A stretch of DNA of 64,000 nt from Methylophilus methylotrophus DSM 46235 = ATCC 53528 (GTDB lineage: Bacteria; Pseudomonadota; Gammaproteobacteria; Burkholderiales; Methylophilaceae), in contig NZ_KB905146.1 in assembly GCF_000378225.1 (NCBI RefSeq), positions 62,001-126,000 on the forward strand. Direction: 5' to 3'. This document shows positions 44,358 through 50,112 of this stretch, piece by piece. The notes below the pieces were generated by a model. It was given only the letters and a program-made list of their open reading frames with translations. It did no database searches and was not told the origin of the DNA. The stretch's first letter is position 1, and the number at the start of each line of letters is the position of its first letter. The position numbers were made by a program, and so were the translations under genes.

Positions 44358-45689
44358 TTAGTGCAGTTTTACATGCGGTTCAGTACGTCTTGAAATGATA
44401 CGGCCTATGGTATGTACAATCACTGCAAGAATGCCATGCAAAGCCATCAAGTGCATTTTGTATAACGAGCGATACATCACACGCGCAAACAGCCCTTGAA
44501 TATACATGCTGCCACCAGCCACAGCCCCCATCAGGCTACCAACCGTTGAGTATTTACCCAGGTTCACCAATGAACCATAATCATGGTAATGGAACTCAGG
44601 CAATTGCGATTTACCAGCGACACGTGCCTTCACTGTTTTTACCAGCAAGGAAGACTGCTGATGTGCGGCCTGCGCACGTGGCGGGACCGTCGTATCATGA
44701 CCCAACCATGGACAAGCAGCACAATCACCAAACGCAAAAATATTTTCATCACGTGTCGTTTGCAGGTTTTGGTTTACAACCAACTGATTAATTCTGTTAG
44801 TTTCCAGACCATCAATATCCTTCAAAAAGTCAGGTGCTTTAATCCCCGCGGCCCATACCACCAGTTCGGCCGGAATTGTACGGCCACTGTGCGTTGTGAT
44901 GCCTTTGGGTGAGACCTCAGTGACACGCTCACCGGTAAAAACGTTGACGCGCAACTTACGCAATTCGACATCTACCGCATAAGATAATTTTGGCGGCAAA
45001 GCAGGCAAGATTCGGTCGCTAGCTTCAATTAGTGAGATCTTAACATCACGGTCTGCATCAATTTTGTCCAGCCCATAAGCGGCCAGCTCACGAGTAGTGT
45101 TATGCAGCTCAGCAGCCAGCTCAACGCCGGTAGCTCCGGCACCTACAATCGCAACTTCCAGCTGACCGGGTTTCAACGGCTCTGGCTGTGTCTGGGCACG
45201 CAATAAGGCATTATGCAGATATCGATGGAATTTCTGCGCTTGTTCCTGGGTATCTAAGGCCATCGAATACTCACGCGCGCCTTTGATTCCAAAATCATTG
45301 GTCGTACTACCCACTGCAATAATCAATGTATCGTATTTAAATGAACGGCGCGCAATAATCTCATTACCATCTTCGTCATGAACTGGTGCCAAGAATACTT
45401 CGCGAGTGCTACGATCCAGCCCATCCATACGCCCCAGACGGAATTTAAAATGATGCCAGTGTGCCTGAGCCAAATACTCCAGCTCATGCCGATCCGGGTC
45501 CATGCTGCCAGCTGCGATTTCATGCAGCAATGGCTTCCAAACATGGGTCCTGGTGGCATCTATCAGCGTAATACGGGCTTTTTTCTTTTTGCCCAGTGAA
45601 TCACCCAGTTTGGTCGCTAACTCCAGGCCACCAGCACCGCCACCAACAATGATGACATGGTGTAAATCATTTTCGTCTGTTACGCTCAC
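44358..45689 (-). CDS. ndh: Type II NADH:quinone oxidoreductase
   Basis: Single-subunit, non-pumping NADH dehydrogenase. The GTG at 45689 has an AAGGA site and gives 443 residues. The frame is open further upstream, but that part is the terminator of the preceding cytochrome gene. FAD-binding VIIVGGGAGGLELATKLG is at the start, the NADH-binding VAIVGAGATGVELAAEL lies in the middle, and FAFGDCAACP is a late FAD motif. A hydrophobic C-terminal helix should bind the membrane. It is the last gene of the methanol oxidation region. Confidence 0.95.
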   Translation of the reverse strand: MSVTDENDLHHVIIVGGGAGGLELATKLGDSLGKKKKARITLIDATRTHVWKPLLHEIAAGSMDPDRHELEYLAQAHWHHFKFRLGRMDGLDRSTREVFLAPVHDEDGNEIIARRSFKYDTLIIAVGSTTNDFGIKGAREYSMALDTQEQAQKFHRYLHNALLRAQTQPEPLKPGQLEVAIVGAGATGVELAAELHNTTRELAAYGLDKIDADRDVKISLIEASDRILPALPPKLSYAVDVELRKLRVNVFTGERVTEVSPKGITTHSGRTIPAELVVWAAGIKAPDFLKDIDGLETNRINQLVVNQNLQTTRDENIFAFGDCAACPWLGHDTTVPPRAQAAHQQSSLLVKTVKARVAGKSQLPEFHYHDYGSLVNLGKYSTVGSLMGAVAGGSMYIQGLFARVMYRSLYKMHLMALHGILAVIVHTIGRIISRRTEPHVKLH

Positions 45690-45705
45690 GCTTCGATCCT
45701 TCAAT

Positions 45706-45738
45706 AAAAAAGCGCGCCTGCCGTACTGCCAAGCGCGC
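45706..45738 (-). terminator. Terminator after the lipoprotein cytochrome gene
   Basis: GCGCGC words 15 bases apart form a stem, followed on the minus strand by TTTTTT. It lies just before the ndh GTG start, which supports that start and separates ndh from the cytochrome gene upstream. Confidence 0.65.
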
Positions 45739-45757
45739 ACAACACTTCAAAATACCG

Positions 45758-46270
45758 TTATTCGTTACCAGTAATTTTGGCATGGCTACGGATAAAGGCG
45801 ATGACTTTCAATACATCATCTGGCTTCAATCCATCATCGGGTGCCATCAGGCCAAATCCTTTCGCGCCCATCCCACCATTGGTGCCATGCCAAATGGTTT
45901 CAAACATACCTTTATTGGTTGCATTTTTAGCGTAGCGGAAATTCTCACCTATCAAGCCAGGACCCACTGCGCCCTCACCGTGTCCGCCATGGCAAGCCAC
46001 ACACGAAAACAGGTTAAACTTTTTCTTCCCTTCTTTGATGGCCTCTTCGTTGCCAATATAAGGGTTTTTACCAGTAGCCAAAAATTCCTTGGCGGCCGGT
46101 GTATCAAACATTTTTTGATCAATTTCCAGAGGCTGACCATCCTGCGTTGCCACAAACTGGATAGCCTTCACATCGCCACCTGTATTCGCAGCTGCACCAG
46201 ATGACTGGCCATCCTTACTACATGCCACCACCAATGTCGCCAGCAATGCCGTTAAAAGCATATTTCTCAT
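45758..46270 (-). CDS. Lipoprotein c-type cytochrome, XoxG-like
   Basis: 170 residues with a lipoprotein signal: MRNMLLTALLATLVVAC, with the acceptor cysteine at 17 followed by S and K, which does not signal inner-membrane retention. A low-complexity linker leads to a mono-heme cytochrome domain (CVACH heme site) nearly identical to that of the next gene upstream, with a conserved methionine in GLMAPDDG as likely axial ligand. It probably takes electrons from methanol oxidation while bound to a membrane. An ATG four codons upstream (46282) is an alternative start. Flanked by terminators on both sides. Confidence 0.9.
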   Translation of the reverse strand: MRNMLLTALLATLVVACSKDGQSSGAAANTGGDVKAIQFVATQDGQPLEIDQKMFDTPAAKEFLATGKNPYIGNEEAIKEGKKKFNLFSCVACHGGHGEGAVGPGLIGENFRYAKNATNKGMFETIWHGTNGGMGAKGFGLMAPDDGLKPDDVLKVIAFIRSHAKITGNE

Positions 46271-46370
46271 CTTTACCCCCATCTTTCCATGTATCCAAAT
46301 GTTCTTTGAAATAAAACGGTTTTTAATTGTTTTTTATAATCAAACCGACTGCATTTATTGTGCCACAAAA

Positions 46371-46400
46371 ACAAAAAACGGTCACCTCAGTGACCGTTTT
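46371..46400 (-). terminator. Terminator between the two cytochrome genes
   Basis: Stem AAAACGGTCAC and GTGACCGTTTT with a 4-base loop. On the minus strand it is followed by TTTTTTGTTTTT. It ends the transcript of the soluble cytochrome gene. Confidence 0.8.
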
Positions 46401-46413
46401 ATTCGCAACGAAT

Positions 46414-46896
46414 TTACTCGTTACCTGTCATGCCTACGTTGCTGTTGCTACGAATGTAAGCAATCACCTTCAGCAATTCATCAGGTTTGATGCCGTCATC
46501 TGGAGCCATCAGGCCAAAGCCTTTAGCACCCATACCACCGTTGGTACCGTGCCAGATTGTTTCAAACATCCCTTTGTTCGTTGCGTTTTTTGCATAACGG
46601 AAGTTTGCACCAATCAAGCCTGGGCCTACAGCACCTTCACCTTTACCACCGTGGCAGGCCACGCAAGAGTACATATTGAAAATTTTCTTGCCTTTTTTAA
46701 TAGCCTCTTCGTTACCGATGTATGGGTTTTTACCAGTCGCCAAGAATTCTTTAGCAGCGTCTGTATCAAACATTGCTTTGTCGATGTTGATGGTTGAGCC
46801 GTCTTGAGTAGCTGAAAATGTAATATCAGCCATTGCACCCGTGGCAAATGCCATCAAGGAAATCAACAATGCTGATTTAAAAGTGTTGCCTAACAT
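46414..46896 (-). CDS. xoxG: Soluble periplasmic cytochrome c, XoxG-like
   Basis: 160 residues with a cleavable signal peptide (MLGNTFKSALLISLMAFATG, cleavage probably after AMA) and one c-type heme site, CVACHGGKGEGAVGPGL. A methionine in GLMAPDDG is the likely sixth ligand. Cytochromes of this kind accept electrons from PQQ methanol dehydrogenases, and xoxJ and xoxF lie immediately upstream. AGGAGA stands 7 bases before the ATG. The gene symbol rests on context and family resemblance. A close paralogue follows downstream. Confidence 0.88.
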   Translation of the reverse strand: MLGNTFKSALLISLMAFATGAMADITFSATQDGSTINIDKAMFDTDAAKEFLATGKNPYIGNEEAIKKGKKIFNMYSCVACHGGKGEGAVGPGLIGANFRYAKNATNKGMFETIWHGTNGGMGAKGFGLMAPDDGIKPDELLKVIAYIRSNSNVGMTGNE

Positions 46897-46920
46897 GTTT
46901 TCTCCTAATCCTAAACAAAA

Positions 46921-46967
46921 TGAGCGACGTTAACATCCATCCCAACCAAAATATTAACGTATGCTCA
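46921..46967 (-). promoter_or_regulatory. Inverted repeat in the leader of the soluble cytochrome gene
   Basis: Two nested pairs of arms, TGAGC with GCTCA and ACGTTAA with TTAACGT, span 47 bases, ending 25 bases before the start codon. It could be an operator or an RNA structure near the ribosome binding site. Confidence 0.42.
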
Positions 46968-47123
46968 TTTAACGAATCGTTCCAGAAACGGTTGACGAAT
47001 ATTTCCGAATCTCTGTACAGAAACTTTCACTCAGCCATCTCAAAACAAGCCAATGATTCTACTGTGTTTTTTTTAGATTGTCATCAGTGACTGCCTGTTT
47101 TTGAAACTTTTCCGCCATGCATG

Positions 47124-48002
47124 TTACTTTTTATACACACTATCACCTTCAACTACTGGCACTGTTGGAATGCCGTAATCTTTCAGGATCGCATCAATCT
47201 TGTCCTTATTACGCTCGAGCGCTTCGTTGATCATCTTGATACGATCCTTGTCCTTCATACGCACTGCGACCGAAATGTTCCAGTATTCCTTACCCTTGAG
47301 GTTCACCTTGTTGTATTCAGGAATCAGGCGCACCTCTAAAGGCACTTTGGATTGCTTGGCAAAATAACCTGCAATCGGCCCCCACATAACGGCAACATCA
47401 ATATCACCCTTGACCAAGTCATCGATAATAAAGCTGGTTGGCAAATTCAGGTCACGTTGCAAACGATATGGGCGTGCATTCGTCATCAAGCCATAATCAT
47501 TCAACGGAATGGTTGCTGGACTCTTGTCAACAATACCGATGATGCCCTTTTTCAGATCTGGGGAATCCCAGTTATTAATGTCGTAGTTACTGTCTTTACG
47601 CCAGACAAACACATGGCCGGAACGATAGTAAGGCTTGGAGGTTCTCAAGCCATCAAAGTCAGAGGTCATACCAATAATCACATCACATCGCATCGCATTG
47701 ATGGTATTACGCAAAAAGCCTTGGCGATTGTATGCATATTGAAAGGTCAATTTCTTACCGAGATCATCAGCCAGCACTTTCGCAATCTTGTCTTCAAAGC
47801 CTTCGAGCTTTAAATTGGAGTAAGGCATATTATCTGGGTCCGAACAGACCTTGAACTCTGACTCATCCGCGACACGACGTATTTCACCGATACGGCCTTC
47901 GTCCGGATTAATGGACGGGATGTCAATTTCTTCGGCAAACACCACACTTTGTGTGGCAAACATCATCGCAAACGCACCCACAATATTCCATGTAATTCTC
48001 AT
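47124..48002 (-). CDS. xoxJ: XoxJ/MxaJ-type periplasmic binding protein
   Basis: 292 residues from the ATG at 48002 (GGATGAAG upstream). The frame extends further but not as protein. A signal peptide (MRITWNIVGAFAMMFATQ) precedes a solute-binding-protein fold with FKVCSDPDNMPYSN and RCDVIIGMTSDFDGL. XoxJ is thought to help activate or assemble the lanthanide methanol dehydrogenase. Located between xoxF and the cytochrome genes, the usual order F-J-G. Confidence 0.94.
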   Translation of the reverse strand: MRITWNIVGAFAMMFATQSVVFAEEIDIPSINPDEGRIGEIRRVADESEFKVCSDPDNMPYSNLKLEGFEDKIAKVLADDLGKKLTFQYAYNRQGFLRNTINAMRCDVIIGMTSDFDGLRTSKPYYRSGHVFVWRKDSNYDINNWDSPDLKKGIIGIVDKSPATIPLNDYGLMTNARPYRLQRDLNLPTSFIIDDLVKGDIDVAVMWGPIAGYFAKQSKVPLEVRLIPEYNKVNLKGKEYWNISVAVRMKDKDRIKMINEALERNKDKIDAILKDYGIPTVPVVEGDSVYKK

Positions 48003-48172
48003 TTTGACTTCATCCTTTTTTGTGATTGTTTCCTGTCGTTTTTGGAGCCTGGTCTCACTCAAAAGTTCTACCAATCAACGACAAAGTGAATCATCTTATC
48101 GTGAATGCGTTTTCATTTGTAGCCAAAACACATTTAATTTTATTCCTCTTGTTTTGAATCATGATATTCATG

Positions 48173-48202
48173 AAAAAAAACACCCTGCCGAAGCAGGGTG
48201 TT
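48173..48202 (-). terminator. Strong terminator after xoxF
   Basis: Perfect 10-base-pair stem AACACCCTGC and GCAGGGTGTT with a TTCG tetraloop, followed on the minus strand by a run of T. It separates xoxF from xoxJ. Confidence 0.9.
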
Positions 48203-48246
48203 AAGGAGTCAACGTATTACTACGTGTAACTTAAGACTAGCTCAAA

Positions 48247-50112
48247 TTACAGTGAGAAAACGTTCAGTGCACCGCCGCCAGGAGCAGCGTTGTACTTGGT
48301 CAACTCTTTGTAGCCACCAGCAGCACCCAGCGCGTCGGTGTCGTTGGTCATACCCAGGTTCATCGCAACACCAGCCCAACCGCCGATACCGGACAGCACG
48401 CCAACGTATTGTTTACCCTTGTTGCCGTATGTGAATGCGTTACCAATCACGCCAGAACCAACTTGGAATTTCCACAGTTCTTTACCGTTTTGTGCATCAA
48501 CAGCTTTGAACCAACGATCCAGAGTACCGTAGAACACGATGTTAGAAGCTGTAGTCAGAGCACCGCCCCAAGCAGAGAACTTCTCTTTGTTGTACCAAAC
48601 TTTTTTGTTGGTCATTGGGTCGTAAGCACCGAAACCACCCATCACGCCGTCTGGACCAGCAAACATGGTCAATGTCGCACCAACCCATGGTTGACCAGCA
48701 ACGTATTTGGATTCAACTGGCTCGTATGTCATACATACGTGGTTCAATGGTGTGTACATCAGACCAGTTTTTGGAGAGTAAGCAGCTGGCTGTTGGTCTT
48801 TAGTACCCAGAGCAGCTGGGCAAACACCCTTAGCGTTGTAGTCTTGGTGAGTAGAAGCAGATGCCAGTTTGTTAGGCACACCTGTTTTCAGGTCAATATC
48901 AGTTGCCCAGTTAACGAATGGGTGTACTTTTTCAGCAGCTACCAATGTGCCGTTACCAGCTTGCCATGTGTAGATGAAACCGTTACGGTCATGGTGCCAT
49001 GCGTATGTTTTGCCACCTTTGTCGAACAGGATCACTTCGTTAATACCGTCGTAGTCCCACTCATCGTGTGGAGTCATTTGCATGCCCCATTTAGCCACGC
49101 CAGTATCCAAATCACGAGCAAAAATTGTCATGGACCATTTGTTGTCGCCTGGACGTACATCTGGGTTCCATACGGATGGGTTACCAGTACCGTAGTAAAC
49201 CAGGTTTGTACGTGCATCATATGGCCACCAGCCCCATACGGAACCGCCACCATGCTGCCAGCCGTCTTTCACAGCTTGTGGTTTCAACCAAGTACGTGTA
49301 CCTAGTTCTTTTTCACCAATTTTCAGGCTGTCGTTAGCCAATTTTTTGAAAGAACCACCTTGCTTGTTACCGCCGTTTACATCTTCGTAAACTGACAGAG
49401 CATTGTAAGATGGGTTTTCTTTGTTGAAGTCAGCACCGATCAATACTTCGCTGTCTGGGCCTGTAGAGTAAGCTTTCCATGCCAGGGAACCGTCTTTGAT
49501 GTTGTATGCAGCGATAAAGCAACGTACGCCGAATTCAGCACCTGAACAACCGGTCAATACTTTGTCTTTGATCACGTGTGGCGCGTTGGTGTTAGTTGCA
49601 CCGACTTTTGGATCAGTGTTTTTAACATCCCATACTTTAGCACCAGTTTTTGCATCTAAAGCAACCAACATACCGTCGTTTTGTTGCAGGTAGATTTTAC
49701 CGTCGCCGTAGCCCAGACCACGAGAAACGTTGTCACAGCACAGAACTGCTTGAACGCTTGGGTCTTGTTTAGGGAAATAAGACCAAACGATTTTTTGGTT
49801 ATCGTTCAAGTCCAAAGCATATACGTTGTTTGGGAAAGCAGTGTGAACATACATCATGTTGCCCACAACCACTGGAGAACCTTCGTGACCACGGTTTACA
49901 CCAGTCGCGAATGTCCAAGCAGCTTTCAGGTTTTTAACGTTGCCTTTGTTGATTTGAGCCAAGGCGCTGTAACCGTTGTTGTTATGTTGTCCACGTGGGT
50001 GAACCCAGTTATTTGAATCTTTCATTGCAGCTTCTTGGTCTGCAGCTGCGAAAGCAACCATTGGCAATGCTGCCACCAGACCCAAGGCCAGTTTGATTTT
50101 GTTAACTTGCAT
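48247..50112 (-). CDS. xoxF: Lanthanide-dependent PQQ methanol dehydrogenase
   Basis: Periplasmic quinoprotein oxidising methanol. From the ATG at 50112 (GGAGATCA upstream) it has 621 residues with a signal peptide ending near AFA. Features are the adjacent-cysteine disulfide C125-C126 in AVLCCDNV, tryptophan-docking repeats of the beta-propeller, and D353-Y354-D355 in HDEWDYDGIN. The extra aspartate two residues after the catalytic one is the lanthanide ligand that distinguishes XoxF from calcium-dependent MxaF, which has alanine there. The sequence looks closest to the XoxF4 clade of Methylophilaceae, by inference only. Confidence 0.97.
   Translation of the reverse strand: MQVNKIKLALGLVAALPMVAFAAADQEAAMKDSNNWVHPRGQHNNNGYSALAQINKGNVKNLKAAWTFATGVNRGHEGSPVVVGNMMYVHTAFPNNVYALDLNDNQKIVWSYFPKQDPSVQAVLCCDNVSRGLGYGDGKIYLQQNDGMLVALDAKTGAKVWDVKNTDPKVGATNTNAPHVIKDKVLTGCSGAEFGVRCFIAAYNIKDGSLAWKAYSTGPDSEVLIGADFNKENPSYNALSVYEDVNGGNKQGGSFKKLANDSLKIGEKELGTRTWLKPQAVKDGWQHGGGSVWGWWPYDARTNLVYYGTGNPSVWNPDVRPGDNKWSMTIFARDLDTGVAKWGMQMTPHDEWDYDGINEVILFDKGGKTYAWHHDRNGFIYTWQAGNGTLVAAEKVHPFVNWATDIDLKTGVPNKLASASTHQDYNAKGVCPAALGTKDQQPAAYSPKTGLMYTPLNHVCMTYEPVESKYVAGQPWVGATLTMFAGPDGVMGGFGAYDPMTNKKVWYNKEKFSAWGGALTTASNIVFYGTLDRWFKAVDAQNGKELWKFQVGSGVIGNAFTYGNKGKQYVGVLSGIGGWAGVAMNLGMTNDTDALGAAGGYKELTKYNAAPGGGALNVFSL

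Follow-up and report, generated by a model that had tools for sequence, protein, structure and literature searches.

Paired XoxG-type cytochromes beside xoxF in Methylophilaceae: predicted address follows gene position, heme-domain type does not

The stretch of DNA analysed here (the window; 64,000 nt of contig NZ_KB905146.1 of Methylophilus methylotrophus DSM 46235) carries on its minus strand, in this order, xoxF for a lanthanide-type pyrroloquinoline quinone (PQQ) methanol dehydrogenase, xoxJ, two genes for XoxG-type cytochromes c, here called A and B, and a gene resembling type II NADH dehydrogenases (NDH-2; ndh). Across the family Methylophilaceae the predicted address of the two cytochromes, soluble for A and lipoprotein for B, follows gene position, and the type of heme domain is decoupled from it. 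Based on these comparisons, both cytochromes probably serve one XoxF from different places, with heme domains that would be overwritten by gene conversion and leaders that would be spared. The features of the cytochrome pair are:

46414..46896, minus strand: xoxG copy A, cytochrome c with an ordinary signal peptide (Pfam Cytochrom_C)
46651..46665, minus strand: heme site CVACH of copy A (residues 78–82)
45758..46282, minus strand: xoxG copy B, predicted lipoprotein cytochrome c (lipobox VVAC, CxxCH, GGMG)
46220..46231, minus strand: lipobox VVA/C of copy B, then SKD (residues 18–21)
45989..46003, minus strand: heme site CVACH of copy B (residues 94–98)

Leaders and gene order of the cytochrome pair

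Both window copies have a c-type heme site within the xoxF locus, as expected for XoxG-type cytochromes, and both have kept the CxxCH motif and the GGMG methionine. Copy B in addition has a VVAC lipobox after a hydrophobic signal, as is typical of lipoproteins, followed by a short tether rich in Ser, Ala and Gly. Cytochrome cL (MxaG; solved structures 2d0w and 2c8s) has a homologous c-type domain, but A (105.4 bits) and B (103.8 bits) both score below the cut-off of the MoxG equivalog TIGR03872 (147.8 bits) and are related proteins not classed as MxaG. A preliminary description of this locus had named xoxJ, a soluble XoxG-like cytochrome and a second cytochrome with a lipoprotein signal, and all of these are present with intact heme motifs.

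The two copies share 79% identity over 141 aligned residues. Their heme domains had been called almost identical; they are indeed of the same kind, but the wording is somewhat strong for 80% identity in protein, 71% in DNA and a same-codon use of 0.38 at conserved residues. A recent duplication in this strain was rejected on the same codon use and on the heme-domain tree, where A and B each belong to a 15-row Methylophilus group.

The gene order phoH-lplT-[ndh-B-A-xoxJ-xoxF]-PIP-rbn is repeated across the family with few exceptions (L069 and L087 show no match to lplT; KB13, L079/L167, none to xoxJ) apart from cuts at contig edges. In a set of 56 xox loci, one per genome and drawn from part of the genomes among the matches listed, both copies are found in 48, the window included, and one copy in eight, of which L096 lies at a contig edge and the remaining seven come from genera g11 (four) and g14 (three). 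The possibility that the second copy is specific to this strain or broken was dismissed on the conserved pairs and the intact ligands across the family loci. The Met-ligand motif is present in all 78 B genes of a larger set described below; CxxCH was a rule of selection there and is uninformative. The earlier view of one xoxG per typical cluster does not apply to Methylophilaceae. A xoxFJGG cluster with an "NADH reductase" gene, the same genes as in the window, has been described as strongly conserved in this family (Beck et al., 2014; PMC4109929), which makes two xoxG beside xoxF the normal state.

Joining these loci with loci of named strains and removing exact repeats of the heme-domain pair gave 78 distinct loci with two cytochromes, in which the copy adjoining ndh was assigned as B by a hand rule on the distance to ndh. 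Loci left out lacked ndh (L065, L097–L100, L110, L147, L154 and L163), had three cytochromes (L141 and L144) or had one (L068, L078, L085, L086, L093–L096, L126, L143, L152, L155, L157 and L171). Among the latter, L096, L126, L143 and L157 lie at contig edges and L155 apparently comes from the same genome as L078, while one soluble-type xoxG with ndh and no second cytochrome B is seen in L068, L078, L085, L086, L093–L095, L152 and L171. The two loci with three tandem xoxG (L141:1444-3409 and L144:3368-5528) differ in layout: L144 has two soluble-type copies with nearly the same leader, and L141 has lipobox-like leaders on the two copies nearest ndh.

A lipobox-like motif was found, by a loose rule, in 77 of the 78 B genes (the exception is L159), and the tether that follows it spans 3–36 residues with a median of 18. 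B leaders are otherwise variable (B-B identity 0.29). The signal peptides of A remain recognisable across heme types (0.32 between types, 0.40 and 0.47 within them, compared with 0.22 for A against B). It is thus in the leader, as predicted from sequence, that the soluble/lipoprotein split follows gene position.

To which membrane B might be sorted is ambiguous. The residue after the lipobox Cys is G in 34 of the 77 loci, S in 23, N in 16 and D, V, F or K in one each, and Lys stands one position further on in 32. In Pseudomonas such a Lys followed by Ser directs a lipoprotein to the inner membrane, and for the residues seen in B the sorting rules of Escherichia coli and Pseudomonas point in different directions. 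LolB is encoded in the genome.

Heme domains and signs of gene conversion

The heme domains fall into type 1, with the motifs TGKNPYIGN and GGMGAKG, and type 2, recognised by a pair of cysteines together with TCxNPYTK and MFAWH or a similar motif; a third variant reads MFIWH. Written as A/B, the 78 loci comprise 43 of class 11/11, 23 of 22/11, four of 22/22, three of 21/11 and five of rarer classes, counts that are not frequencies because the scan of named loci was queried with window copy B and under-sampled type-2 loci.

Heme-domain lineages are not sorted by gene position. On a heme-domain tree of 108 rows, built from few columns and with many forks unresolved, the label A needs 13 changes, at least seven of them forced by strong branches, and a single clade for all 48 A was rejected (delta lnL 533; approximately unbiased (AU) test, p 4e-72). 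Mapped onto a tree of the NDH protein covering 73 of the 78 loci, with all non-type-1 domains lumped, the heme type of A changes at least six times and that of B three times, one of which is a single row with uncalled type (L160), leaving two firm changes. In a 34-row clade (support 99/92), the CVACHGG type of the window brings together both copies from Methylophilus, both from Methylotenera oryzisoli and both from one Methylotenera metagenome-assembled genome (MAG). The NDH tree, on which the window protein is nearest the Methylophilus rows, does not join Methylophilus with these two, and lateral transfer may therefore have started some of the switches.

The clearest signs of gene conversion come from seven pairs (LSUCC0717, LSUCC0665, LSUCC0401, the ERR599143, SFB_3D and Ww101 MAGs, and G036), which we assign to the OM43 clade, presumably correctly, from the LSUCC and KB13 strain names. 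Their A and B genes are identical in DNA over 381–413 nt, nearly the whole heme domain (permutation p 0.001 each), and their leaders are 10–27% identical. The identical tract reaches the stop codon of B in six of the seven and ends 28 nt short of it in G036. Identity between A and B within a genome is 0.98–1.00 in these seven, as against 0.79–0.95 for A with A between the eight genomes compared (the eighth is KB13). Six of the seven form a clade of seven with KB13 on the NDH tree, which does not contain ERR599143. B leaders are alike among closer strains, which points to leaders that descend by position and a heme domain that is shared within the genome.

Over all 78 pairs, the longest identical run has p < 0.05, uncorrected, in 20. 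Copy A of Methylovorus (two named species and G066) appears to be a mosaic. After the NPY motif it is of type 1, with an identity of 0.71–0.72 to type-1 B and 0.44–0.45 to type-2 A, and the 39 residues before NPY contain the type-2 cysteine pair and are on average nearer to type 2 (0.64–0.67 vs 0.55–0.56 and 0.51–0.53). We infer from these patterns recurrent gene conversion between tandem neighbours, perhaps helped by lateral transfer.

Other genes of the locus and genome, and phage relatives

The remaining features of the locus, with the hairpins between its genes, are:

48247..50112, minus strand: xoxF, lanthanide-type PQQ methanol dehydrogenase (reading frame open to 50157, ATG at 50112)
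49048..49056, minus strand: codons of the D353-Y354-D355 lanthanide signature, PHDEWDYDGINE (residues 368–370 of the full open reading frame)
48179..48202, minus strand: terminator-like hairpin after xoxF (10 pairs and a T run)
47124..48002, minus strand: xoxJ, periplasmic binding-protein-like (reading frame 47124–48074, ATG at 48002)
46375..46400, minus strand: terminator-like hairpin between A and B (11 pairs and a T run)
44358..45740, minus strand: NDH-2-like FAD/NAD(P) oxidoreductase (Pyr_redox_2; probable start GTG at 45689)

The XoxF protein belongs to the PQQ alcohol dehydrogenase family TIGR03075 (611.4 bits, cut-off 480.05), and its top solved relatives are the lanthanide-dependent XoxF structures 6oc5 and 6dam. 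Lanthanide-type enzymes have an extra Asp two residues past the catalytic Asp (D-x-D). The window protein reads D353-Y-D355, exactly the residues claimed beforehand when counted from the ATG at 50112, at a place where the calcium-type large subunit 4tqo reads DYA. Residues 242–289 (window 49291–49434) include about 33 residues that are extra relative to 6oc5, and the phmmer alignments break there. The XoxF4 clade has been reported solely from Methylophilaceae, and lanthanide-dependent activity has been reported for XoxF4 of Methylotenera mobilis (PMC6028718). From this family distribution the window enzyme is presumably a XoxF4.

XoxJ scores 265.7 bits against TIGR03871 (cut-off 212.15) and is XoxJ/MxaJ-like. 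The NDH-2-like gene lies inside the interval of the preliminary description and was not named there. Its best solved matches are the type II NADH dehydrogenases 9pxk, 5na1, 9mqy and 4nwz, and all NCBIfam matches shown fall below their own cut-offs.

Terminator-like structures follow xoxF in 54/65 loci, xoxJ in 8/77, A in 70/78, B in 25/78 and ndh in 15/75, against an expectation of at most 0.5 per class (0.3 after A) from dinucleotide-walk shuffles, or plain shuffles where the walk fails. A separate count over another stretch, made with no control, gave 72/77. The hairpins probably split most loci into three successive expression steps, xoxF, xoxJ-A and B-ndh.

The assembly of 2.86 Mb encodes three XoxF proteins, the other two being 89% and 76% identical to that of the window, in agreement with the "90 to 92%" and "approximately 70%" copies given for Methylophilus methylotrophus ecotypes (PMC4109929). 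It also encodes a MxaF-like protein (50–55% identity) and a distant PQQ enzyme (30%). Its MoxG-type cytochromes number four: besides A and B there is a third at C1:1046914, and the last lies next to the MxaF-like protein on C2. The third, a lipoprotein-like XoxG (C1:1046914-1047414; L097:5903-6484), has no recognised xox gene among its neighbours, and copies away from the pair with similar identity also occur in other genomes of the genus among the matches listed. MxaG-like proteins of Methylophilus have a conserved lipobox-like TVACAK after a hydrophobic signal in nine loci (L100:7537-8190, L176 and L178–L184; L177 and L185 gave no row). The cytochrome of the calcium enzyme (MxaG-like) may also be a lipoprotein.

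A XoxG-type gene that lacks a lipobox lies on two IMG/VR contigs (L199:3967-4494 in IMGVR_UViG_3300023176_004832 and L200:1359-1886 in IMGVR_UViG_3300020168_000383; L197 and L198 are the same contigs). The encoded protein is 58–59% identical to window copy A, and the gene is close to OM43-clade xoxG (82% DNA identity at best among the loci compared). It is surrounded by clamp-loader, translation-repressor, S21, Hsp20 and thioredoxin genes, a set from which we take the contigs to be T4-like. Nine further IMG/VR contigs (L201–L209) encode XoxF, several of them partial, with 78–92% identity to that of the window, and no XoxG was found on any of the nine within the stretches examined. A phage origin of the window pair was discarded, copy A having no match in a collection of 50,697 phage records. 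Viral methanol dehydrogenase is already published for T4-type phages of Methylophilaceae (PMC7678222), in a paper whose main text does not contain the word "cytochrome". The phage XoxG could serve as a viral acceptor of electrons from methanol oxidation.

A shared XoxF partner and its alternatives

The module is real and the gene cluster itself is already known. The relevant passages of Beck et al. (2014) say nothing of hairpins, of conversion or of one soluble and one lipoprotein copy, and the words "lipoprotein", "soluble" and "gene conversion" do not occur in its main text (PMC4109929). In the open-licence literature searched we found no report of the address split by position, of position-independent heme domains or of the division by hairpins. 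Betaproteobacterial XoxG have been divided into two phylogenetic types, XoxG1 and XoxG2, that are co-expressed with xoxF genes (Yu et al., 2017; PMC5723320). That study handles its types as lineages, whereas here heme type does not track gene position (our types are not assigned to XoxG1 or XoxG2). A parallel is the concerted evolution of amo, hao and cyc genes in Nitrosomonadales (PMC6053082), where paralogues within a genome, again in energy metabolism and including cytochromes, are likewise closer than orthologues. The Nitrosomonadales copies are near-identical genes, whereas in Methylophilaceae the heme domain alone is shared and the targeting leader stays distinct. In 2017–2018 it was still described as an open question which protein accepts electrons from XoxF in Methylophilaceae (PMC5723320, PMC6028718). 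In Methylomonas sp. LW13, XoxF is able to reduce XoxG4 (PMC5874918).

In the reading that we favour, XoxF would oxidise methanol and reduce either cytochrome. Copy A would diffuse in the periplasm and pass electrons towards a terminal oxidase, and copy B, whose heme domain is of the same kind but linked by a short tether to a predicted lipid anchor, would be an acceptor held at a membrane. Conversion between the tandem neighbours would repeatedly overwrite the heme domains and leave the divergent leaders, and hence the addresses, untouched, and the intergenic hairpins would set an expression that falls from xoxF to J-A and then to B-ndh. Taken together with the phages, the picture of a two-address acceptor kept by domain-limited gene conversion, with T4-like phages carrying their own XoxG to complement the viral methanol dehydrogenase, is put forward tentatively.

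Several observations weigh against a shared partner with homogenised heme domains. A and B differ in heme type in 30 of the 78 pairs, so their matching is not always kept. B is absent, away from contig edges, in seven of the 56 loci (three of g14, four of g11) and also in HTCC2181 and one Ca. Methylopumilus MAG (L171, L152), and is thus not universally needed. Regarding the leaders, 13 of the 78 A pass the same loose lipobox rule; all 13 matches fall on the cysteine with which the type-2 domain begins, 57–58 residues before the heme, and 11 read SAAC, a weak lipobox. These appear to be domain cysteines, and a few A may be lipidated. Two of the 78 A (L129 and L140) miss the Met-ligand pattern. 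As for conversion, the window pair itself has a longest identical run of 14 nt (p 0.60) with no sign of a recent event; it is outside the pairs with significant runs, and its homogenisation would be old. KB13, in the same clade as the seven OM43 pairs, has an A-B identity of 0.94 and no long tract. Finally, the N-terminal contrast in Methylovorus A is weak, as the best matches to A22 and A11 are equal (0.69) in two loci and A11 is higher (0.74 vs 0.71) in the third.

The 30 pairs of differing type would also fit a copy B whose partner is some other dehydrogenase (a further XoxF, MxaF or another PQQ enzyme) and not the neighbouring XoxF. This genome offers such partners in its two further XoxF, its MxaF-like protein and its distant PQQ enzyme, and co-expressed xoxF and xoxG are not always colocalised (Yu et al., 2017; PMC5723320). 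Yet both copies remain within the xoxF locus across the family, and G036, with a single XoxF match, keeps both with heme-domain DNA that is 98% identical, which fits a shared partner better; we regard this explanation as quite unlikely. A role of B with the adjoining NDH-2 gene in place of XoxF would agree with the hairpin that separates B from A in 70/78 loci and the rarer one between B and ndh (25/78), but loci that lack B still keep ndh, the heme domain of B is of the XoxG/MxaG kind, and NDH-2 acts at the cytoplasmic face whereas B is predicted to be periplasmic. Such a role is very improbable.

The lineages that lack B could instead mean that it is a dispensable extra dose of xoxG, with homogenisation as a neutral result of the tandem layout and a lipid anchor of no special role. 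Conversion between tandem repeats requires no selection, and long-lasting concerted evolution is known from energy genes of other bacteria, among them the cytochrome genes in ammonia oxidisers (PMC6053082). We give this a small chance, as the lipobox-like motif is kept in 77 of 78 B despite such variable leaders (B-B 0.29), the Met motif is kept in 78 of 78, and B has been retained in OM43 genomes of only 1.3–1.4 Mb. Lateral transfer of whole or partial xoxG between Methylophilaceae might have produced the heme-type switches without conversion inside the genome. It would account for the CVACHGG clade that joins A and B of Methylophilus and Methylotenera where the NDH tree does not, and the XoxG-type gene on phage contigs offers it some support; in the seven OM43-clade genomes, however, A and B of one genome are closer than A is to A between genomes, a pattern that transfer alone does not give, and as the sole source of the switches it is a minor possibility.

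The decoupling of type and gene position suggests that, within Methylophilaceae, the types on XoxG trees should not be taken for orthologous lineages. With a XoxG on phages, the influence of viruses on methanol oxidation would reach beyond the enzyme to the electron sink. For the family itself, the conserved pair of one soluble and one anchored copy, whose heme domains match in the small OM43 genomes, is a compact system for asking whether the location of the acceptor matters in rare-earth methanol oxidation.

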